Shown here in pieces: positions 1-8,335 of a DNA stretch of 10,596 bases. Positions within the stretch are counted from its first letter, which is position 1. Every line of letters begins with the position of its first letter. The stretch covers positions 1-10,596 of the forward strand of contig NZ_JAHXBN010000052.1 of NCBI RefSeq assembly GCF_019924045.1, given 5' to 3'. Under the pieces are notes generated by a model. The model was not told where the DNA came from. It saw only the letters and a list, made by a program, of their open reading frames with translations, and searched no databases. The translations under genes were made by a program, and so were the position numbers. Source of the stretch: Dyadobacter fermentans. Its GTDB lineage: Bacteria; Bacteroidota; Bacteroidia; Cytophagales; Spirosomataceae.

Positions 1-198
1 GCACCTGGCCCGATGGACACCCCGTTCTTTTACGGTCAGGAAAGCGACGATGCGGTTGCCTACCATAAATCGGCCGCCGCGCTCGGCGGATTGACCGACA
101 TCAGGGACATTGCTCCTTTGGTGGAGTTTCTGGTATCAGAGGGCTGGTGGATTACCGGTCAGACTATATTCGCTAACGGCGGATACACGACGCGGTAG
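1..198 (+). CDS. SDR-family oxidoreductase, C-terminal fragment
   Basis: This is the last 65 residues of a short-chain dehydrogenase/reductase; the open frame runs off the left edge from base 1, so the Rossmann fold and the catalytic Tyr-x-x-x-Lys lie outside the window. What remains fits the SDR C-terminus: an APGPMDTPFF segment (the post-catalytic PG motif followed by T-P-F), a helix containing DIAPLVEFLVSEGWW, and the typical ending WITGQTIFANGGYTTR, where ITGQ and NGG form the last strand and turn. SDR enzymes use NAD(P)H to reduce or oxidise alcohols and ketones; the substrate cannot be read from this end. The next gene starts 33 bp downstream on the same strand, so co-transcription is possible, but no functional link to the channels is evident. 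Confidence 0.9.
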   Translation, partial: APGPMDTPFFYGQESDDAVAYHKSAAALGGLTDIRDIAPLVEFLVSEGWWITGQTIFANGGYTTR

Positions 199-231
199 AA
201 GTTAGTTTGAGACAGGATTCCGGGATCGTTT

Positions 232-897
232 ATGAACATCGCGAAAAGGCTTGAAAAACGGAAGTATGAACTGCTGTTATTAGTACTGGTGCAGCATTTG
301 TTCGTCGGTATTTTCTTGCCTGATCTCGATTTTTATACCCGAGTGGTCTGGCCGGTGAATATACTGATACTAGGTGTCGGCAGCATTCTTACTTTTGCCG
401 GCAAACACAGCTGGAGACATTGGCTACGTAACTTACATTTCGTAGCCATCCTGTTGCTCCCGATCGGTATCCCGTTCTTCAAGGATGTTCCCTGGTACTT
501 TACCTTGCTCAATATCAATTATGTAGTCTTCTTTTGCTTTCTGTTTGCCGAATTGCTCAGTTTCCTTGTAAAGCCAGGTTATATTAATACCGACATCATT
601 TCCGCCGCGGCTTGCGGCTATTTATTACTTATAGAAATTTCCGTTTTCTTATTGCAGTATTTCCAGTACCAGGACCATCGGGCCTTCAACGGGATCGACA
701 CCTCTTCGCCTGCACACACTTTTATCGATCTTGTGTATTTCTGTTCTATTACCTTTACCAGCATCGGTTTTGGGGACATCACGCCCAACCTGCCTGCCAC
801 CAAGCTGGTTGCCGCATTCATCGGTATTGTAGGGCAGTTTTATACTGTTGTGCTGGTAGGCATTCTGATCAGTAAATTTTCTTCCAACAGCCAATAA
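232..897 (+). CDS. Potassium channel family protein (Ion_trans_2-type pore)
   Basis: A 221-residue integral membrane protein with about six hydrophobic helices (roughly residues 13-29, 37-56, 66-83, 90-113, 122-144 and 190-213). A re-entrant pore loop lies between the last two. The loop carries TSIGFGD at residues 176-182, matching the K+ selectivity filter TTVGYGD with Phe for Tyr (GFG, known in some K+ channels) and Ser for the second Thr. It therefore probably forms a tetrameric K+-conducting channel in the inner membrane. The four N-terminal helices lack an obvious arginine-rich S4, and no cytoplasmic RCK/TrkA domain follows, so gating is unknown. ATG 232 is chosen because it places a short basic stretch (AKRLEKRK) before the first helix. 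The bestrophin gene begins 4 bp after the stop, which implies translational coupling. TTAGTTTG at 202-209 is a 7/8 match to a -7 element but has no -33 partner. Confidence 0.85.
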   Translation: MNIAKRLEKRKYELLLLVLVQHLFVGIFLPDLDFYTRVVWPVNILILGVGSILTFAGKHSWRHWLRNLHFVAILLLPIGIPFFKDVPWYFTLLNINYVVFFCFLFAELLSFLVKPGYINTDIISAAACGYLLLIEISVFLLQYFQYQDHRAFNGIDTSSPAHTFIDLVYFCSITFTSIGFGDITPNLPATKLVAAFIGIVGQFYTVVLVGILISKFSSNSQ

Positions 898-901
898 CCT
901 A

Positions 902-1918
902 ATGAACACATCCAGCCATTACAACCTATATCATTTCATTCCCTGGACACGGACGAAAATCTACAAGATGCTTTTGATAAGCAGCGTTCCGACCACATTG
1001 TTCTATTTTCTGGATTGGAAATGGCTGGCCCTTCCCTGGGTGCCGGTGGCGCTGCTGGGTACAGCCACAGCGTTTATTTCCGGGTTTAGAAATACGCAGA
1101 CCTACAACCGGAGCTGGGAAGCAAGGCAGGTGTATGGAGCAATCATCAATAGTAGCCGTGCGATGGGAATCATGGTGAGGGATTTTCTAAGGACCCCCGA
1201 AAAGGCAAGTGAGGCGGCCCTTCACAGGCAGATTATTTACCGGCATCTGGCTTGGCTTACCGCGCTGCGCTTTCAGTTGCGCGAAACCAAAAGCTGGGAA
1301 AACGTTAAGACCCGCAGCTATAACCGCCAGTATCTGAAGTACTATAAAGTTCCGGAATGGGAAAGCACGCTGGACCAGGAGCTGAAAAGTTTTTTGAACT
1401 ACGAAGAACTGCAGTACATCCTATCCACTAAAAACAAGGCGGCACAACTCATCGCGACGCAGTCTGCACAGCTCAGAACGCTCAATGAGCTGGGTATGAT
1501 CGCTGATTACAGCTACGTGGCACTGGAAAGTCTGCTCAAAGACCTGTACGATCAGCAGGGCAAATGCGAACGCATTAAGAATTCTCCCTATCCACGCCAG
1601 TTTTCCAGCATCAATTTGTACTTCACCAATATGCTTTGCCTGATGCTGCCGTTGGGATTTCTTGGCGAGCTTTCCAAGCTGACCGACAGGCTGGGGGATA
1701 ATATTGTCTGGCTGGCCATACCGCTCAGCGTTTTGCTAGGCTGGGTCTTTTTGATCTTAGAGCAAATCGGTGAGTCTACTGAAAACCCATTTGAAGGTAA
1801 TGCGAACGACATCCCGGTTACTCAGATCAGCCGTAACATAGAGATCGATCTCAGGGAAATGCTGGGCGAGAGAGAGCTGCCCCAGCCATTGGTAGCAGTC
1901 AATAACATTTTGATGTAG
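902..1918 (+). CDS. Bestrophin family ion channel (UPF0187 type)
   Basis: A 338-residue bestrophin homologue, close to the usual bacterial length of about 300 residues. Visible family motifs are GFRNTQTYNRSWEAR (residues 61-75; the family pattern is FR-x-x-x-AY-x-RWWEAR), QGKCERIKNSPYPRQF (219-234, the conserved CERI-x-x-TP-x-P segment after the third helix region) and ENPFEGNANDIPV (294-306, equivalent to the conserved acidic E-x-PF-x-x-D-x-ND-x-P tail). Hydrophobic spans lie near 22-37, 42-60, 238-257 and 268-288. Family members form pentameric channels. Eukaryotic ones carry Cl- and HCO3-, while at least one characterised bacterial homologue is cation-selective, so selectivity is uncertain here. 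The gene follows the K+ channel by 4 bp and precedes an LCIB-type carbonic anhydrase-like gene by 52 bp, which favours a bicarbonate-related role by inference only. Confidence 0.9.
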   Translation: MNTSSHYNLYHFIPWTRTKIYKMLLISSVPTTLFYFLDWKWLALPWVPVALLGTATAFISGFRNTQTYNRSWEARQVYGAIINSSRAMGIMVRDFLRTPEKASEAALHRQIIYRHLAWLTALRFQLRETKSWENVKTRSYNRQYLKYYKVPEWESTLDQELKSFLNYEELQYILSTKNKAAQLIATQSAQLRTLNELGMIADYSYVALESLLKDLYDQQGKCERIKNSPYPRQFSSINLYFTNMLCLMLPLGFLGELSKLTDRLGDNIVWLAIPLSVLLGWVFLILEQIGESTENPFEGNANDIPVTQISRNIEIDLREMLGERELPQPLVAVNNILM

Positions 1919-1970
1919 GCAAACCTATGCCCGGTGGTTCGGGGCTTAAATCATTTAATTCCAAAAGAAC

Positions 1971-2720
1971 ATGAAAAATCAACATCTTGAAGCTGTTCGT
2001 CAGTGGTACCCTAATGCGATGACTTCCATCGACACCATTGATCGCCTGCTGGATGTCATCGAAAAGCATCTTGGCCTAAAACCAGAACAGCTAATGCACG
2101 CTGACAGCATGTGTTGTGACGACGTCAATGCGATTCAGTATCCGCCACGGGCTTATGAGATGATTGGCCCCTTCAAAATGGGAGGGCTCAATGGTTACCC
2201 TTTCGCAGGACTAACGGGTATGAATGCATTTGCCCACCACGTTCCTGAAAATGGCGCGGTGGTTGTATTTTACGCGCCTCATATCGGTATTACAAAAGAA
2301 GGTGTTATCGGTGAAATCAACAGAATCGGTCAGCAGGCGAATTCCGCTTGCTGTGGGGCTGCAAAGGGAGCCTTAAATAAGCTGCTGAGCAACCAGATCA
2401 TCGAGGGTAACATCAGTTCGCTGGATTTTCAGATGAATACCATTGAGCAAATTTTTTTACATAACCAGGCAAGAATCCTGAGCGCGTCCAATCATCTGTT
2501 CGAGGCAACCGAAGTGATGTACGAAGCCATTGATAATCGTATAGAGGTATTGGTCGGACAAACTCAGTACCCTTGTAAGTACGTCATTCTGGTCGGTGCT
2601 GTTTTTATCAACGGGGATCGGGATATGGGATCGTTCTGCCAATATAAGAAGTTCGACTATATTGATCTGGACACCAGCGAGCGGAGAAGCTTAATGAAAG
2701 AATATTTTCTGGAAGCATAA
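1971..2720 (+). CDS. LCIB/LCIC-type beta-carbonic anhydrase-like protein
   Basis: A 249-residue soluble protein that I recognise as the LCIB (limiting-CO2-inducible protein B/C) domain, a beta/theta-carbonic anhydrase-like fold. Supporting blocks are SMCCDDVN at 46-53; GGLNGYPFAGLTGMNAFAHH at 71-90, followed by VPENG; a Y-A-P-H-I-G-I segment at 101-107; and GQQANSACCGAA at 120-131. Candidate zinc ligands are Cys48 or Cys49, His89 or His90, and Cys127 or Cys128, with Asp50 or Asp51 as the nearby acid. The role would be interconversion of CO2 and bicarbonate in the cytoplasm. The Arg two residues after the Asp in the beta-CA C-x-D-x-R dyad is not seen (Val52 or Asn53 there), so activity is not assured. 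There is no signal peptide. ATG 1971 follows the A-rich stretch CCAAAAGAAC, as is common in Bacteroidota. It sits next to a bestrophin, as in the algal CO2-concentrating partnership. Confidence 0.82.
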   Translation: MKNQHLEAVRQWYPNAMTSIDTIDRLLDVIEKHLGLKPEQLMHADSMCCDDVNAIQYPPRAYEMIGPFKMGGLNGYPFAGLTGMNAFAHHVPENGAVVVFYAPHIGITKEGVIGEINRIGQQANSACCGAAKGALNKLLSNQIIEGNISSLDFQMNTIEQIFLHNQARILSASNHLFEATEVMYEAIDNRIEVLVGQTQYPCKYVILVGAVFINGDRDMGSFCQYKKFDYIDLDTSERRSLMKEYFLEA

Positions 2721-2812
2721 GAAGCTAAGGCGAAGATCAGACGAAAAAGAAATTATCAACAACTTTCCGATGCCGCTTAGAGGGCTACATCTAACGGTAT
2801 TGACATACTGTG

Positions 2813-3235
2813 ATGCTATTTATCAACCTTATTTATTTCTGTGCAATAACAACGCTCGCCGGGGCGGGCGATCTGTTCGTTAAGCATGTATCACACGCTG
2901 CATTAAACGAAGTAAGTCCCACAGAAAACGCGGGATATTTTTTTGCTTTACAAAAAGTGCCTTTGCATGCAAGACAATACATATTCACTGCTGATTTGTT
3001 GAAAAGGGCCATTTACATTGATGAAGGCCAAAGGGTGCCGCTGAGCTACACCATGACATTGAAGAATGGAAGAGGTTTTGATATGTATTTCTCCGGGGCC
3101 GATTATAGCGTGATATTGTCAGTTAAGCAGGAAACAGTCATTGATCAACAAACAAGTGAATACCAGGCTAGTTTGATTGTCCGGCACGGACGGCTTAAAC
3201 GTAAATACGCCGTACACGGAATATTAAACAAATGA
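2813..3235 (+). CDS. Hypothetical secreted protein
   Basis: A 140-residue protein I do not recognise. Residues 1-19 (MLFINLIYFCAITTLAGAG) look like a signal peptide with an AGA-type cleavage site near 17-20. Cys10 sits inside the hydrophobic core rather than in a lipobox, so a lipoprotein is unlikely. The mature part is polar and basic, with alternating hydrophobic stretches that suggest beta structure (for example YSVILSVKQ at 98-106 and YQASLIVRHG at 117-126) and a highly basic end (RLKRKYAVHGILNK). An in-frame GTG at 2810 gives one more residue; the ATG at 2813 is preferred. It lies 92 bp after the LCIB-like gene and 88 bp before the Kbp-like gene, all on the same strand. Location is probably periplasmic; function is unknown. 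Confidence 0.65.
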   Translation: MLFINLIYFCAITTLAGAGDLFVKHVSHAALNEVSPTENAGYFFALQKVPLHARQYIFTADLLKRAIYIDEGQRVPLSYTMTLKNGRGFDMYFSGADYSVILSVKQETVIDQQTSEYQASLIVRHGRLKRKYAVHGILNK

Positions 3236-3323
3236 TCTGCTGAGTTGGTAATTACCCTGTACTATTTTATTTCTATCAGAATATACCAGTGTCGATTAAT
3301 ATTCATTTAAACAGTTTTATTTT

Positions 3324-3791
3324 ATGGGTCTATTATCATTTATTAAAGGAGTTGGTGAGAAAATCTTCAAGAAAGACGAAGCTGGCACGGCGCCGCACCC
3401 CGCGGAAGTTGCCGAACCTCTGCGTGCGAGTGCTCTGCTCGCGCACATAAAGTCGCTGGGGCTTCCTTACAACAGCCTCAGTGTGAAAACATCCCAACAT
3501 ACCGTTATCCTGGAAGGGAGTGTAGCCCGGCAGGAGGATGCCGAAAAAATTGCGCTGGCTGTCGGTAATGTGGAAGATGTAGACTTGGTTGACAACCGTA
3601 TCGAGGTGGTTGCGCCCACTCCGGCCGCCCTGTTCCATACCGTTGAAAAAGGCGATACGCTCTCAAAAATCGCGCAGACTTATTATGGTGATATGAACCA
3701 ATATCCGGTCATTTTTGAGGCTAACAAACCTATGCTGAAAAACCCCGACCTGATCTACCCTGGGCAGGTGCTGAGGATCCCCGCATTATAA
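3324..3791 (+). CDS. kbp: BON-LysM protein, Kbp/YgaU-like potassium-binding protein
   Basis: A 155-residue cytoplasmic-type protein with the architecture and length of E. coli Kbp (YgaU, about 149 residues): a short amphipathic N-terminus (MGLLSFIKGVGEKIFKK, similar to the E. coli start), a BON domain at about 33-95 (ILEGSVARQEDAEKIALAVGNVEDVDLVDNRI) and a LysM domain at about 104-153. The LysM part includes HTVEKGDTLSKIA, then FEANKPMLKNPDLIYPGQ and VLRIP, which is nearly identical to E. coli Kbp. No signal peptide is visible despite the LysM domain. E. coli Kbp binds K+ and changes conformation; carrying that role over to this protein is inference. Its presence three genes after a K+ channel makes K+ handling a plausible theme. 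ATG 3324 is supported by the match to the E. coli N-terminus. The neighbouring GlsB-type gene begins about 12 bp downstream. Confidence 0.88.
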   Translation: MGLLSFIKGVGEKIFKKDEAGTAPHPAEVAEPLRASALLAHIKSLGLPYNSLSVKTSQHTVILEGSVARQEDAEKIALAVGNVEDVDLVDNRIEVVAPTPAALFHTVEKGDTLSKIAQTYYGDMNQYPVIFEANKPMLKNPDLIYPGQVLRIPAL

Positions 3792-3802
3792 ACAGGCTGC
3801 GT

Positions 3803-4099
3803 TTGCGTTATAGGTTTTACATAAATCCAATTACTAAGACAAATGTTTTGGTATCGATCCTGATCGGAGGTCTGGCAGGTTGGCTTGCCGACAAAGCATT
3901 CAGCCGTTTTTCGCTATCCTTGTGGGTTCAGATTTTACTGGGTATGCTTGGAGGGGTCGTAGGTGGGTGGTTGTTAGGGAATGACCTTCAGACGGTACTG
4001 GGATTCCCCGCGATTGTTTCCAGGTCCCTGACTGCGTTTATCGGGGCAATTGTTGTTCTGGGTGTAGTTGCATTGATCAAAGGGAATAAACCTACTTAA
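3803..4099 (+). CDS. GlsB/YeaQ/YmgE family stress-response membrane protein
   Basis: A small, very hydrophobic, glycine-rich protein with three helices (about residues 15-29, 40-59 and 74-93), matching the transglycosylase-associated GlsB/YeaQ/YmgE family: ILIGGLAGWLADKAF, then LLGMLGGVVGGWLLG, then a final TAFIGAIVVLGVVALIKG. These inner-membrane proteins are often induced by stress; their biochemical role is unclear. The start is uncertain because no in-frame ATG exists. TTG 3803 gives 98 residues with a basic leader, while TTG 3848 (residue 16) gives MVSILIGGLAGW, closer to the usual family N-terminus. The ATG at 3843 is out of frame. The gene follows the Kbp-like gene by 11 bp, suggesting a bicistronic unit, and is followed by a long hairpin. 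Confidence 0.75.
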   Translation: MRYRFYINPITKTNVLVSILIGGLAGWLADKAFSRFSLSLWVQILLGMLGGVVGGWLLGNDLQTVLGFPAIVSRSLTAFIGAIVVLGVVALIKGNKPT

Positions 4100-4126
4100 A
4101 AGGGCATCCGTAGTAACTTCGGGAAA

Positions 4127-4169
4127 ACATAAACTCACTAAAATGTAAAGCATTTTGGTGAGTTTATGT
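4127..4169. terminator. 19-bp hairpin between convergent genes, probable bidirectional terminator
   Basis: ACATAAACTCACTAAAATG (4127-4145) pairs with CATTTTGGTGAGTTTATGT (4151-4169) over 19 bp, with one T-G wobble and a 5-nt TAAAG loop. It lies 27 bp after the stop of the GlsB-type gene and 80 bp beyond the stop of the minus-strand hybrid sensor, the usual place for a shared terminator. The stem is AT-rich and has no clear U-tract on either side, so it may act as a 3'-end stabilising structure rather than a classical intrinsic terminator. Confidence 0.6.
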
Positions 4170-4248
4170 CCTATGCTGATGCTTGTGTAAAACACCAGGT
4201 CTTAGCAGCGCAATATCACCAGTTTCTGATAGTTAATTCATTTGTAAA

Positions 4249-7200
4249 TCAATTGCTTTCAGAGGAGCTGTCGGCGTGGCCGGGCATTTGATTTTTTATC
4301 TCTTTGGGTTTTTTTCCGTACGCCTTTGCGAATTCTTTGCTGAAATGTCTGCTATCTTCAAACCCGATGATAGTGGCAACTTCACTCACGTTGTATATCC
4401 CCGTCTCCAATAGCTTTTTAGCTTCACCGAGCCGAATTGTTTTCGTGAAATCATTAACCGTCATTCCGGTAAGTGATTTCAGTTTTCTGTAAAGCGCGGA
4501 TACACTCATACCGACCTGAAAAGCCAGCTCATTAACACCAAACTTCGGATCGGAAATATTCTCAATAAGCAGTGCCCTGAGCTTGCCGATAAATGCCTCG
4601 TTCACGTCCCGGGCAACACTGTTTGCAGCCCCGTCCACCAGTACCGACTCCCGGTAGCGCGTTCGCAGCTCGTCCCGTACGCGGATCAGGTTGTTGATTT
4701 TCAGTTCCAGAATCCGCGTGTCGAATGGTTTGGTGAGGTAGTCGTCCGCACGCGATTCGAGTCCTTCGATCACGTGCTGGTTCTGGGTTCGGGCGGTAAG
4801 CAGTACCACTGGAATGTGCGCCGTGGCTACATTATTTTTCAGCCGGCTGCATACTTCAAGCCCGCTCATTTCCGGCATCATCACATCGGACAGCACGATA
4901 TCCGGCAAATGCTCGTTGGCTAGTTCGAGCCCGCGCATGCCATTCTCTGCTTCCAATATATTGAAATCTCCTTCAAAAAGGTCTCGGATAAATACCCGCA
5001 ACTGGTCGTTGTCTTCGATGATCAGGATGGTATTGGCCTGCTTTCCGTCTGCCGCGTGGTTGCTGGCCGGCAAGGCCATCGTCTCGGCCAGCATGTCTTC
5101 CGTATACGACTGAACGTTGGTGGCTATTTGTTCGGGTGCGAAGTGCAGGTTTTTTCGCAACATGAGAATCGTCAACGTGGTGCCGCCGGGCGCCGCCTCG
5201 CCGGGCGCCGCCGCAATCCCATTTAGCGCGTAGCCGTTATGCAGGCGGCTTTCGGCGGTGAGGTAGCCATGGTGCTGCTCGACGATAGCCTTTGAAAGCG
5301 CCAGCCCGATGCCGTAGCCTGGTTTTTCGGAATCCGCCTGGTAGTAGTAGGTGAAAAGTTTCTGAAGATGCTCCTGCGACATACCCTTCCCATTGTCTTC
5401 CACGGTAATTTTTACTTCGTTGGAAGTCTCGGTAATGCGCACCGCCACCCGGCCGGCTTCATGGGTGAATTTATAGGCGTTGCTCAGCAGGTTGTAAAAT
5501 ACCTTCTGCATCTGGGCGATGTCAAACCACAGCAAAACAGGTGTTTCCGGGGCTATCAGTACAGTTTCGATGCCTTTTTCCCTGGCCATATGCTCGAATG
5601 CGGCGATTACATTCTTGATGATCTTCACTACATCATGCTCCTGTACCAGCAAGCGTGTGCCGCCACTCTGGATTTTGCGGAAATCAAGCAGTTCGTTCAC
5701 CAGGAGCATGAGCCTGTCGGAGCTCGTACGTGCGTAACTGAGGTAGTTTTTATTGTTTTTGCCCTCGACGGCCTGCTGGTAGGCTTTTTCCAATGGCCCG
5801 CTGATCAGCGAGAGGTGTGTGCGGATTTCGTGCGAAACGTTGGTGAAAAAATCGAGCTTGACCTGGTTCAGTGCGTTCTCCCTTCTGAATGAGCTCCGGA
5901 TCCAGAGGAAGCGCACAATGGCATATACGACGCCCGCCGCCAGCAGCAGATAAGCCAGGTAAGCCCACCAGGTCCGCCACCATGGCGGTAGTATATTGAT
6001 TTTAATTTGAAGCGGTTCTTTGGTCCAGATACCGTCGCCATTAGCCGCCTTGACCTGGAAGATGTAGCTGCCTGACGGGAGGTTCGTATAGGTTGCCGAT
6101 GGCGTTTCGACATAGTTCCAGCCCCGGTCGATGCCGTCTATTTTGTAGGCATAACGGTTTACGTCCGACCGCACATAATCCAGCAGCACGAAGTCGAGCG
6201 TAAAAATGCTCTGGTCATGCCGGAAGGTGATTTCTTTTAATTTTCCGACGGGTACAGGAAGAATGCCGGTGCTGTCGCGAGCCACTACCGTTTGGTTATA
6301 TAATTTCAATGAACTGAGAACAATAGGGGCGGAGCGGTTGGGAATGGATATCGCGGCCGGATCGAAGCTGAACATGCCCTTGTCGGTCACGAAATAGAGA
6401 TGTCCGTTCCGGTCGGTCGTGCCGGCGCCCTGCATCAGGGTCCCTTTGGCAGGCAGGCCGTCGTGTGCGCTGTACGATTGAAGTGTCTTTTCCCTAGGAT
6501 GGTAGCGGAATAATTTCGTACCTGCATTGATCCAGATATAACCCTTACTGTCGGGAACGACGTCGAGCGCGCCTTCCTGCGGAATGTTGGTACTCAGCTC
6601 AAACCGGTTCTTTCCGGGATTGTAGCTTAGCATTTGCGTCTCACAGGCGGCCCAGATTGTTCCCCACTTGTCTTCGTTCACACGCCATGAGATGACGAAC
6701 TCCGAATTCGAATGGATTTTTTCAATCACAGGTCTGGGGGCTTTGGCTGCCTCAGGTTTAATCCGGTATAGTCCAGCTTCTCCGCCGATCCAGATATTCC
6801 TGTGTGAGTCTTCCAAAATAGAGGTCGCGTAGTTAACCGCCGGGGCCTTGGAGAAGGTGCCGTTTTTTTTATCGAGCAGGAGCAGACCATAAGTTCCTCC
6901 TACCCAGAAATGCCCGTAACTATCCTCGGTGATCACGAAAGTACGTTTTTTTCGGAGTTTGGGCCCTCCCGGGACCGATAGGGGGTAATGACGGTAGGTG
7001 CCCCGTCGGATATCTAAACTGGTCAGCACGGCCTTGCCCCCAGCCCAGAGTACTTCGTTTTGGTCAATATAAAATGCATAATAATCTGCTTTGGCGTCTA
7101 GTTTTAGGGGAAACATCTCGGATTTTTTACCTGCGGTGTCGAAGAGCAGCAGTTTTTGCAGATCGTCCGAAACGCTCCACATACGATTCGTTTTACTCTT

Positions 7201-8298
7201 TCCAATCCATGCATTCACGAATGAGCCGGCGCGTGGGTCGTCCGGGCCGAATGGCCAGCGTTTGAAGCGGGGAGAGTTGAGGTGGACGTAGCAGATCCCA
7301 CCATAGTAGCTTCCCAGCCAAAGCCCGCCCTGGTTGTCGACGTAGGCAGCATAAAGCGAATTGTCAGACAGGCTCTGCGGCTCACCGGGTTGGTTCACAT
7401 ACCAATCCAGTTCCCCTGTCGACGGGTTGAAATGGGCCAGCCCCGAGTCGGTGGCAAGCAGCAACCTGCCACGTCGGTCCGAAATAATGTCCCGTACGAC
7501 CGGCAGGCCGCCGGTCGTGTTTTTCACACTGCTGATGGTGCTGAAAACTTCTGTCGCCGGGTCGAACCGGATTAGTCCGCCGCTGCTGTTTCCCAGCCAC
7601 ACAGCGCCATTGTTGTCCGTGAAAATAGTCATAAACTCGTTCCGCAGCGGTTCTGTTGCAGCCGGCGGCATCCGGTACAGTTTTGGCTTGTCGCCATTGG
7701 CTGGCATTCTGATCAGCCCGTCGGCCGAGCCCAGCCAGAGCGCTCCGTCTTCGCCTTCGGCCATGCATTTGATTTCGAGCGATGCGCCTTTGAATTCATT
7801 TTGCAGATAGCGGGATATGCTCACGGACCCATTACCGGCGATAATGCGGGTGAGCCCATGCTCGGTACCTGCCCAGATTTGCTTTTTGCTGTCTTCCATC
7901 ACACAGTTGACCCATGCATGGGATAGCGTATTAACGCGGGTCGAATCATGTTTGAAATGGGTAATATGGTCCGTATTGGGATCATAAAGCGTCAATTGTA
8001 AGCTACTAGCTACCCAAATTCGGCCCTGCGAGTCGGATATAATGTCCTTGATATCTGTAAAGACCTGCTTGCCGGCGGGGGCCGTCAGGTAGCGGGTCAG
8101 GCTACGGGTGTCGTACCGGATCAGCCCGTTTTGTGTACCAAACCACATCAAGCCGTCTTTGCCTTGTGCAATGGCAAATATGCCATTGATTGGCTCTTCT
8201 TCTTTTTCTGAAATGTTTTTAAACGATTGTGCCCCCGTGCGGGCGAGGGAGGCAAAAATAGCAATCAAGCTAAGCAGGATACTTTTATAACTGGTCAT
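4249..8298 (-). CDS. Hybrid two-component system sensor kinase/response regulator (HTCS) with AraC-type output
   Basis: A 1349-residue HTCS protein (numbering from ATG at 8298; TTG 8301 would add one residue). Order: signal peptide about 1-24; 14 propeller motifs of the W-x-G...GL...D type between about 48 and 650, enough for two seven-bladed propellers; Y_Y_Y domain about 688-771; one membrane helix about 778-798; HisKA with SHEIRTHL (phospho-acceptor His823); HATPase with N-box Asn940, DNGKG at 968-972 and GYGIGLAL at 995-1002; receiver about 1090-1205 with Asp1096, phospho-acceptor Asp1138, Thr1168 and Lys1190; AraC-type HTH about 1240-1335. The propellers should sense a ligand in the periplasm and the HTH acts on DNA. 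Family members usually control polysaccharide-utilisation loci, but no SusC/SusD or glycosidase gene is in view. Oddities are His828 in place of the usual Pro in the H-box and an Ala/Gly/Pro-rich insertion near 1020-1040. A candidate -7 element lies at 8336-8343. Confidence 0.96.
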   Translation of the reverse strand: MTSYKSILLSLIAIFASLARTGAQSFKNISEKEEEPINGIFAIAQGKDGLMWFGTQNGLIRYDTRSLTRYLTAPAGKQVFTDIKDIISDSQGRIWVASSLQLTLYDPNTDHITHFKHDSTRVNTLSHAWVNCVMEDSKKQIWAGTEHGLTRIIAGNGSVSISRYLQNEFKGASLEIKCMAEGEDGALWLGSADGLIRMPANGDKPKLYRMPPAATEPLRNEFMTIFTDNNGAVWLGNSSGGLIRFDPATEVFSTISSVKNTTGGLPVVRDIISDRRGRLLLATDSGLAHFNPSTGELDWYVNQPGEPQSLSDNSLYAAYVDNQGGLWLGSYYGGICYVHLNSPRFKRWPFGPDDPRAGSFVNAWIGKSKTNRMWSVSDDLQKLLLFDTAGKKSEMFPLKLDAKADYYAFYIDQNEVLWAGGKAVLTSLDIRRGTYRHYPLSVPGGPKLRKKRTFVITEDSYGHFWVGGTYGLLLLDKKNGTFSKAPAVNYATSILEDSHRNIWIGGEAGLYRIKPEAAKAPRPVIEKIHSNSEFVISWRVNEDKWGTIWAACETQMLSYNPGKNRFELSTNIPQEGALDVVPDSKGYIWINAGTKLFRYHPREKTLQSYSAHDGLPAKGTLMQGAGTTDRNGHLYFVTDKGMFSFDPAAISIPNRSAPIVLSSLKLYNQTVVARDSTGILPVPVGKLKEITFRHDQSIFTLDFVLLDYVRSDVNRYAYKIDGIDRGWNYVETPSATYTNLPSGSYIFQVKAANGDGIWTKEPLQIKINILPPWWRTWWAYLAYLLLAAGVVYAIVRFLWIRSSFRRENALNQVKLDFFTNVSHEIRTHLSLISGPLEKAYQQAVEGKNNKNYLSYARTSSDRLMLLVNELLDFRKIQSGGTRLLVQEHDVVKIIKNVIAAFEHMAREKGIETVLIAPETPVLLWFDIAQMQKVFYNLLSNAYKFTHEAGRVAVRITETSNEVKITVEDNGKGMSQEHLQKLFTYYYQADSEKPGYGIGLALSKAIVEQHHGYLTAESRLHNGYALNGIAAAPGEAAPGGTTLTILMLRKNLHFAPEQIATNVQSYTEDMLAETMALPASNHAADGKQANTILIIEDNDQLRVFIRDLFEGDFNILEAENGMRGLELANEHLPDIVLSDVMMPEMSGLEVCSRLKNNVATAHIPVVLLTARTQNQHVIEGLESRADDYLTKPFDTRILELKINNLIRVRDELRTRYRESVLVDGAANSVARDVNEAFIGKLRALLIENISDPKFGVNELAFQVGMSVSALYRKLKSLTGMTVNDFTKTIRLGEAKKLLETGIYNVSEVATIIGFEDSRHFSKEFAKAYGKKPKEIKNQMPGHADSSSESN
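5185..5214. repeat. In-frame 15-nt tandem duplication inside the HTCS ATPase domain
   Basis: Two adjacent 15-nt units (5185-5199 and 5200-5214) agree at 14 of 15 positions, each starting GCCGGGCGCCGCC. On the minus strand they encode AAPGE and AAPGG (about residues 1030-1039 of the hybrid sensor). The duplication lies in a GC-rich, flexible insertion before the last strand of the HATPase domain and keeps the reading frame. Confidence 0.8.
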
Positions 8299-8335
8299 CA
8301 ACGAAGCGCACTTGGTTAGAAACGAATGCTTTTTG

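Follow-up and report, generated by a model that had tools for sequence, protein, structure and literature searches.

A K+ channel, a bestrophin and an LCIB-type carbonic anhydrase in one gene cluster

The window analysed here, i.e. the whole stretch of 10,596 nucleotides of Dyadobacter fermentans contig NZ_JAHXBN010000052.1, comes from a soil bacterium and shares 99.1% DNA identity over 8732 bp with Dyadobacter jiangsuensis DSM 29057. It carries, on the plus strand, a bestrophin gene (902-1918, stop included; 338 amino acids (aa)) and, after a gap of 52 bp, a gene encoding a putative LCIB-type carbonic anhydrase (CA) (1971-2720; 249 aa). An earlier note on this DNA had given both identities and the spacing, which are confirmed, and had viewed the two genes as a bicarbonate-handling pair in a non-photosynthetic bacterium. 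This view is plausible for a genome whose only RuBisCO-family match looks OiaX-like, but incomplete: a K+-channel gene overlooked at that time (232-897, same strand; 221 aa) ends 4 bp before the start of the bestrophin gene. The unit is made of at least three genes, encoding a bestrophin, an LCIB-type carbonic anhydrase and a K+ channel, the last being replaced by a Na+/H+ antiporter in some relatives.

The bestrophin, a predicted anion channel, matches PF25539 (E 4.8e-43, 148 bits for a cut-off of 27) and the KpBest chains (6.6e-24). The earlier note had made the LCIB assignment depend on a profile match; the protein matches PF18599 over positions 2-223 of the 223 of the profile (E 1.9e-66, 224 bits for a cut-off of 25) and, in a sequence search, an LCIB-family chain of the PDB (1.3e-25). 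TAL-effector chains among the PDB sequence matches were ignored, no stretch passing alone. The predicted structure (pLDDT 82; low confidence for residues 50-55 and 68-77, near the active site) has PtLCIB4 chains as best PDB matches in Foldseek (TM 0.75-0.77, E ~1e-14). The protein resembles PtLCIB4 and other LCIB-family proteins (PDB 5b5y, 6kfs) by its Pfam family, its fold and its aligned candidate zinc-site residues; it differs from them by an identity of ~24-25% in the structural match, and the activity of the bacterial clade is putative.

Residues C48, D50, H90, R118, C127 and C128 are invariant in 31 aligned LCIB sequences. C48 and D50 (codons C48-C49-D50, 2112-2120) align with the Cys and Asp that flank S47 of PtLCIB4, and H90 (2238-2240) aligns with its H88. 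C48, H90 and either C127 or C128 are predicted to be the zinc ligands and D50 the Asp of the dyad; R118 is a candidate for the dyad Arg (codons R118 to C127-C128, 2322-2354). PtLCIB4 is said to be active as a carbonic anhydrase, and the zinc-binding residues of LCIB proteins are taken partly from what Jin et al. reportedly described in 2016. We consider the window protein as an LCIB-type carbonic anhydrase with a putative CO2 hydration activity.

The 221-aa protein matches PF07885 (Ion_trans_2, 48.1 bits). It shows hydrophobic segments followed by a pore loop and a last helix, and solved K+ channels match its C-terminal part. Its selectivity-filter motif TSIGFGD (T176 to D182, 757-777) is found in all 22 aligned sequences with variation only at position 180 (F or Y). 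This membrane protein would be the cation partner of the bestrophin.

Conservation of the linkage between bestrophin and LCIB genes

LCIB genes were collected from 200 genomes of the same family without choosing for neighbours. An LCIB match was obtained in 40 of these genomes at E 0.001 (39 above the cut-off). After removal of one below-cut-off match (G091; such handles are our own) from the 44 obtained, 43 loci were read with flanks of up to 6 kb, contig ends permitting; the LCIB gene of the window itself was read in locus L001 with 1.5-kb flanks. A bestrophin gene directly precedes LCIB, in the same orientation, in 25 of the 43 loci, which come from related genomes and are not independent. 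Since no genome showed more than 8 bestrophins at E 1e-10, our own estimate of the frequency expected at random is well under 1%.

Outside the family, the linkage is scarcer. Among 395 genomes of the phylum, 35 have LCIB; only two of the 33 LCIB genes that lie outside the family adjoin a bestrophin gene, both together with a K+ channel. In 295 genomes sampled from the class, a narrower LCIB profile gave 12 matches outside the family. A bestrophin is located beside LCIB in five of them (in L303 as a 164-residue match), L304 has only a 29-residue bestrophin-like remnant and, in the six others, no bestrophin was found within the 1.5-kb flanks. In L304, a beta-CA-like open reading frame (ORF), recognised by eye, is followed by this C-terminal remnant just before LCIB (678-1363), perhaps the trace of a bestrophin replacement. 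The adjacency that the earlier note expected in related genomes is found within the family but is far from general outside it; neither of the two results that the note named as refuting it was obtained. Since 25 of 43 loci are linked in the family versus 2 of 33 elsewhere, the linkage belongs to certain LCIB clades and is not Bacteroidota-wide; the latter figure rules out a universal adjacency in this phylum.

A second set of 80 named loci was picked by similarity and is consequently biased; it also overlaps the family sample. A bestrophin is found within three genes on the same strand in 64 of them, and the order is reversed (LCIB then bestrophin) in three (L066, L073 and L075). Spacing is tight: the gap between K+-channel and bestrophin genes is at most 8 bp in 35 of 39 pairs, and the one between bestrophin and LCIB genes is at most 35 bp in 63 of 78, some loci having been fetched twice in these counts. 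The distances among bestrophins correlate with those among LCIB proteins (r 0.67 over 75 pairs), but this was not used as a test because the pairs are not independent.

As a control, beta-CA genes were considered in 101 of the same family genomes: among the matches listed, at least three of 145 lie within 1 kb of a bestrophin gene, and none of the 31 control loci read with flanks of up to 1.5 kb has one. Bestrophins also occur paired with a different CA family. In three places, a beta-CA gene lies at most 300 bp after a bestrophin gene (G003:C2:2646916-2648468, G015:C11:505748-507270 and G032:C6:474764-476410).

A joined query for bestrophin-LCIB fusions (7996 candidates scored) gave no two-domain protein among the best 120 of 3094 matches, these 120 all carrying PF25539 only. 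A 582-aa open frame around LCIB in G598 (L302) was rejected as a fusion, tblastn showing a separate bestrophin in another frame that ends just before LCIB. The linkage is real, kept within certain clades and richer than first noted; what we infer is its mechanism.

The neck of the linked bestrophins

The window protein belongs to the same family as KpBest (PDB 4wd7/4wd8) but differs from it at the neck. Residues T54, F58 and F62 (codons T54 to F62, 1061-1087) align with I62, I66 and F70 of KpBest, assuming that chain and KpBest numberings are offset by three residues, in agreement with the published I62/I66/F70 pattern. F58 and F62 are invariant in 26 aligned sequences. According to a review (PMC8496536), KpBest (neck IIF) is a Na+ channel, the I66F substitution makes it favour Cl-, and eukaryotic channels have IFF. 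The neck of the window protein is of this IFF type by its middle Phe, its first residue being T instead of I.

When linkage is defined as LCIB within two genes of the bestrophin, all 78 distinct linked sequences carry an FF neck (73 TFF and 5 IFF). For comparison, 19 other bestrophin places of the family were considered, namely the best PF25539 matches and those of the window genome itself, and 18 could be called. Their middle residue is I, L, M or V in 16 cases (13 of them read by eye as the pattern missed them); the two remaining ones, both from the window genome, are TFF. From this single residue, the FF-neck bestrophin clade is predicted to be anion-selective.

An exchangeable cation partner

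In the 25 linked family loci, the gene directly upstream of the bestrophin gene encodes a K+ channel in eight cases and a CPA1 Na+/H+ antiporter in four; eight others have another gene on the same strand and five have none on that strand. In the 64 linked named loci, this position is occupied by a K+ channel (29), an antiporter (8), LCIB itself in the reversed loci (3) or other genes for the rest. The antiporter of L054, for instance, passes TIGR00831 (a_cpa1) with 344 bits for a cut-off of 280. In a bestrophin tree of 120 sequences built by a quick method, the label "LCIB plus antiporter" needs 7 changes, of which at least three are forced by starred branches. Therefore, the cation partner was probably swapped repeatedly. 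Furthermore, in one Dyadobacter lineage (L205, L206), the genes after LCIB encode a flavodoxin-fold protein and a KefC-like one.

Members of the linked bestrophin clade that lack LCIB as a neighbour adjoin TMEM175 K+ channels (five loci, Pfam-confirmed in two) or an antiporter (two loci, L143 and L144). L051 was left out of the latter pairs since LCIB lies three ORFs downstream. As the pairing occurs away from LCIB, the association of a bestrophin with a cation transporter seems to be a wider theme, LCIB being an addition in some clades. The TMEM175 genes were located at L148:869-1501 and L154:2512-3147, and also in L149, L150 and L165.

Comparison with the algal LCIB-bestrophin pairing

In Chlamydomonas, LCIB/LCIC are reported (PMC6708349) to interact with BST proteins, proposed carriers of HCO3- from stroma to lumen, and the loss of LCIB/C or of BST1-3 is said to lower the accumulation of inorganic carbon (Ci). 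The bacterial cluster is alike in combining an LCIB-family protein with a bestrophin, and its topology would match, with LCIB in the stroma or cytoplasm and HCO3- directed to the lumen or periplasm. It differs by the presence of a cation transporter, by an apparently different bestrophin subfamily and by a genome whose only RuBisCO-family match is OiaX-like.

A profile of 26 LCIB-linked bestrophins gives 53.6 bits with plant VCCN1 and 51.2 with PDB 7pl9 (listed as a rhodopsin, which we take to be the algal rhodopsin-bestrophin), whereas a profile of 15 other Bacteroidota bestrophins reaches 150.7 and 160.3 bits, respectively. By these profile scores, the linked bestrophin does not appear to belong to the plant/algal subfamily, the comparison being indirect since it includes VCCN1 and 7pl9, not BST1-3. 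The lower scores may partly reflect a greater divergence of the linked clade, which is also further from KpBest (best score of 155.6 bits versus 268.6 for the other profile). Since ordinary Bacteroidota bestrophins come out closer to the plant and algal ones by score than the linked clade does, the bacterial and algal pairs probably arose separately. Hence, of the two origins that the earlier note had put forward, an ancient pairing is not supported by these scores; a convergent one is the better reading, not a proven one, given the divergence of the linked clade and a comparison that covers VCCN1, 7pl9 and KpBest. A convergent pairing would mean that LCIB-type enzymes and bestrophins were joined at least twice, which would argue for a physical advantage of the combination itself.

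The role of LCIB with bestrophins in algae is still discussed and, to our knowledge, little physiology has been assigned to bacterial bestrophins. In the literature searches made, no paper listed describes this bacterial gene set by its title or abstract. A compact bacterial set that unites both proteins and a defined cation partner opens to direct tests whether they form a complex, whether HCO3- permeates, in which direction, and how this is coupled to pH.

A possible role in CO2 hydration and bicarbonate efflux

The gene identities, their order and conservation, the swapping of the cation partner and the neck motif are observed. We propose that they reflect a three-gene ion/CO2 module in which CO2 hydration and HCO3- efflux are balanced in charge and pH by the cation partner, a reading to which we give a probability of about 0.45. 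The cytoplasmic LCIB-type enzyme would convert CO2 and H2O into HCO3- and H+. HCO3-, and probably Cl- too, would leave through the bestrophin down the inside-negative membrane potential, and the K+ channel would release K+ as charge balance. The cell would thereby keep the proton and lose KHCO3, which would counteract a rise in cytoplasmic pH or a cation load and rid the cell of CO2 from respiration. The Na+/H+ antiporter that occupies the cation slot in relatives and the KefC-like antiporter encoded after LCIB in one Dyadobacter lineage could export a cation in exchange for an entering proton, i.e. act in the same net direction. HCO3- transport and its direction, like the activity of the enzyme and the physiology of the module, are thus presented as what the gene set would do.

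By standard bioenergetics, HCO3- flows out of an inside-negative cell through an anion channel as long as its external concentration is not about a hundred times higher or more. Since the flow through the channel would be outward, and since K+ loss leaves H+ in the cell or an antiporter brings it in, pH/ion balance with HCO3- efflux is favoured over bicarbonate supply. The replacement of a K+ channel by a Na+/H+ exchanger also suggests a set that moves bicarbonate while balancing pH and charge. Of the roles imagined in the earlier note, pH control is consequently the one that would better fit the cation partners, and the supply of HCO3- to carboxylases would be unfavourable by inward flow through a passive channel. 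A bolder, rather doubtful version of our proposal is that Bacteroidota independently invented an electrically balanced bicarbonate-export module: LCIB would feed an anion-selective bestrophin, and an exchangeable slot (K+ channel, TMEM175 or CPA1/CPA2 antiporter) would set the charge and proton balance. If bicarbonate is exported in this way, the module would be a bacterial analogue of the epithelial transport metabolon formed by CA, anion channel and NHE.

Several observations weigh against HCO3- efflux by a conserved module. No bestrophin lies immediately upstream in 18 of the 43 family LCIB genes (in L177, whose LCIB ORF was missed in gene calling, tblastn found no bestrophin; in L206, one lies five genes upstream), nor beside 31 of the 33 that the phylum sample contains from other families. 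Of the 25 linked family loci, 13 have no recognised cation partner directly upstream, and the single-chain model of the K+ channel is poor (pLDDT 57) and was not used. The FF neck is not LCIB-specific either: among 24 bestrophins that are not beside LCIB, found mostly by searching with the bestrophin of the window and mostly from its clade, 22 are TFF and two SIF. Therefore, this neck marks a bestrophin clade and not the linkage with LCIB. H+-pyrophosphatase genes located beside LCIB in L182 and L185 do not agree with an acid-retaining direction; these neighbours fit neither efflux nor supply clearly. Moreover, the window genome encodes two beta-CAs besides LCIB, and a review (PMC5876011) describes some recombinant LCIB proteins as inactive in vitro. 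Finally, the bestrophin could serve osmotic or potential control as a Cl- channel.

Alternatively, the module may import HCO3-, or trap incoming CO2 in this form, and so supply anaplerotic carboxylases at low CO2. The algal Ci phenotypes cited above go in this direction. In other Bacteroidota, moreover, LCIB adjoins SbtA with PII, or DabA with a DabB-like gene: in the phylum sample, SbtA with a PII protein is found within three genes of LCIB genes devoid of bestrophin in 8 of 33 loci, both families being Pfam-confirmed in L124. Since such LCIB genes adjoin carbon-uptake systems, this explanation stays alive for them. For the window, it is unlikely, as a passive anion channel would leak HCO3- rather than accumulate it against an inside-negative potential, and the genome already possesses two beta-CAs, one of them beside a SulP-type transporter. 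SulP-beta-CA, SbtA-SbtB and DabA-DabB resemble the module in tying an inorganic-carbon transporter to a carbonic anhydrase function. All of these are uptake systems, unlike the window module, in which the carrier is a channel with a separate cation partner. For SbtA, BicA and DAB2, uptake is described in PMC13144422.

Another explanation that we consider improbable is a release of salt or a control of the membrane potential: K+ and anion channels would let KCl out for hypo-osmotic relief and LCIB would be a passenger. The TMEM175-bestrophin (five) and antiporter-bestrophin (two) loci away from LCIB fit this reading, but a carbonic anhydrase that is only a passenger would not be expected to remain next to the bestrophin in several clades of the latter and in either gene order.

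The genes could also form a horizontally spread cassette held together by transfer rather than by a joint function. The patchy presence of LCIB in the family genomes agrees with transfer, as do the recurrent extra genes (short-chain dehydrogenase (SDR), DoxX, aldehyde dehydrogenase (ALDH)) and a bestrophin tree that mixes bacterial families, the window sequence standing beside a Chitinophaga one (support 90). Nevertheless, unrelated transporters of similar function refill the cation slot, the core is constant while the flanks vary and the adjacency recurs in reversed order, which makes a mere cassette very unlikely. Lastly, that LCIB is a non-catalytic CO2/HCO3- sensor or regulatory subunit of the bestrophin, as the LCIB/LCIC-BST interaction reported in PMC6708349 and the inactive recombinant proteins mentioned in PMC5876011 might suggest, is extremely improbable given the invariance of the predicted zinc ligands and Asp in 31 sequences and a closest fold, PtLCIB4, that is reportedly CA-active.

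Other inorganic-carbon genes and surroundings of the module

The second CA system of the window genome, a beta-CA gene beside that of a SulP-type transporter, lies at G000:C77:453068-453520 (L170), so that LCIB is not the only CA of this genome. The RuBisCO-family match (G000:C35:182298-183098, L266) was rejected as a sign of carbon fixation: its best NCBIfam model is OiaX and it lies beside an OiaK-like kinase gene, both matches being below their cut-offs. A role of this RuBisCO-like protein in isoapionate catabolism is more likely than carbon fixation.

In family f24 of the phylum sample, LCIB has in its vicinity a gene for an SbtA-type Na+/HCO3- transporter and, after it, a PII gene, either adjacent (L226, L229, L236, L241) or within three genes (L220, L225, L234, L245). 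In L199 (5953-11424), the genes that immediately precede LCIB, in its orientation, encode DabA (PF10070, 720 bits) and a candidate DabB resembling NuoL. Besides the genes so labelled in L182 and L185, an H+-pyrophosphatase with an extra C-terminal OmpA domain is encoded beside LCIB in L098 (3110-5869).

Upstream of the module, the window begins with the C-terminal end of an SDR (1-198, plus strand; PF13561, 33.5 bits). An SDR gene is also found upstream of the module in L031, L191, L215 and other relatives, its adjacency not being constant. In L034, L064, L191, L195, L197 and L215, the upstream regions recurrently encode an SDR, a DoxX_2-like membrane protein of 115 aa, a weakly SnoaL-like protein of ~145 aa and an aldehyde dehydrogenase. 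Downstream, a 141-aa protein (2810-3235) matches no family above cut-off; it is excluded from the module because it is present in only two loci, of the same species, among 138. A scan of positions 1-4300 for promoters and terminators gave counts similar to those of shuffled sequence. Further downstream, a BON and LysM protein that passes NF008399 (3324-3791, plus strand) is encoded 11 bp before a small membrane-protein ORF (3803-4099). On the minus strand, a 1350-aa ORF (4249-8301) has by eye the look of a hybrid two-component regulator, with repeats, histidine-kinase-like and receiver-like parts and helix-turn-helix (HTH) ends.

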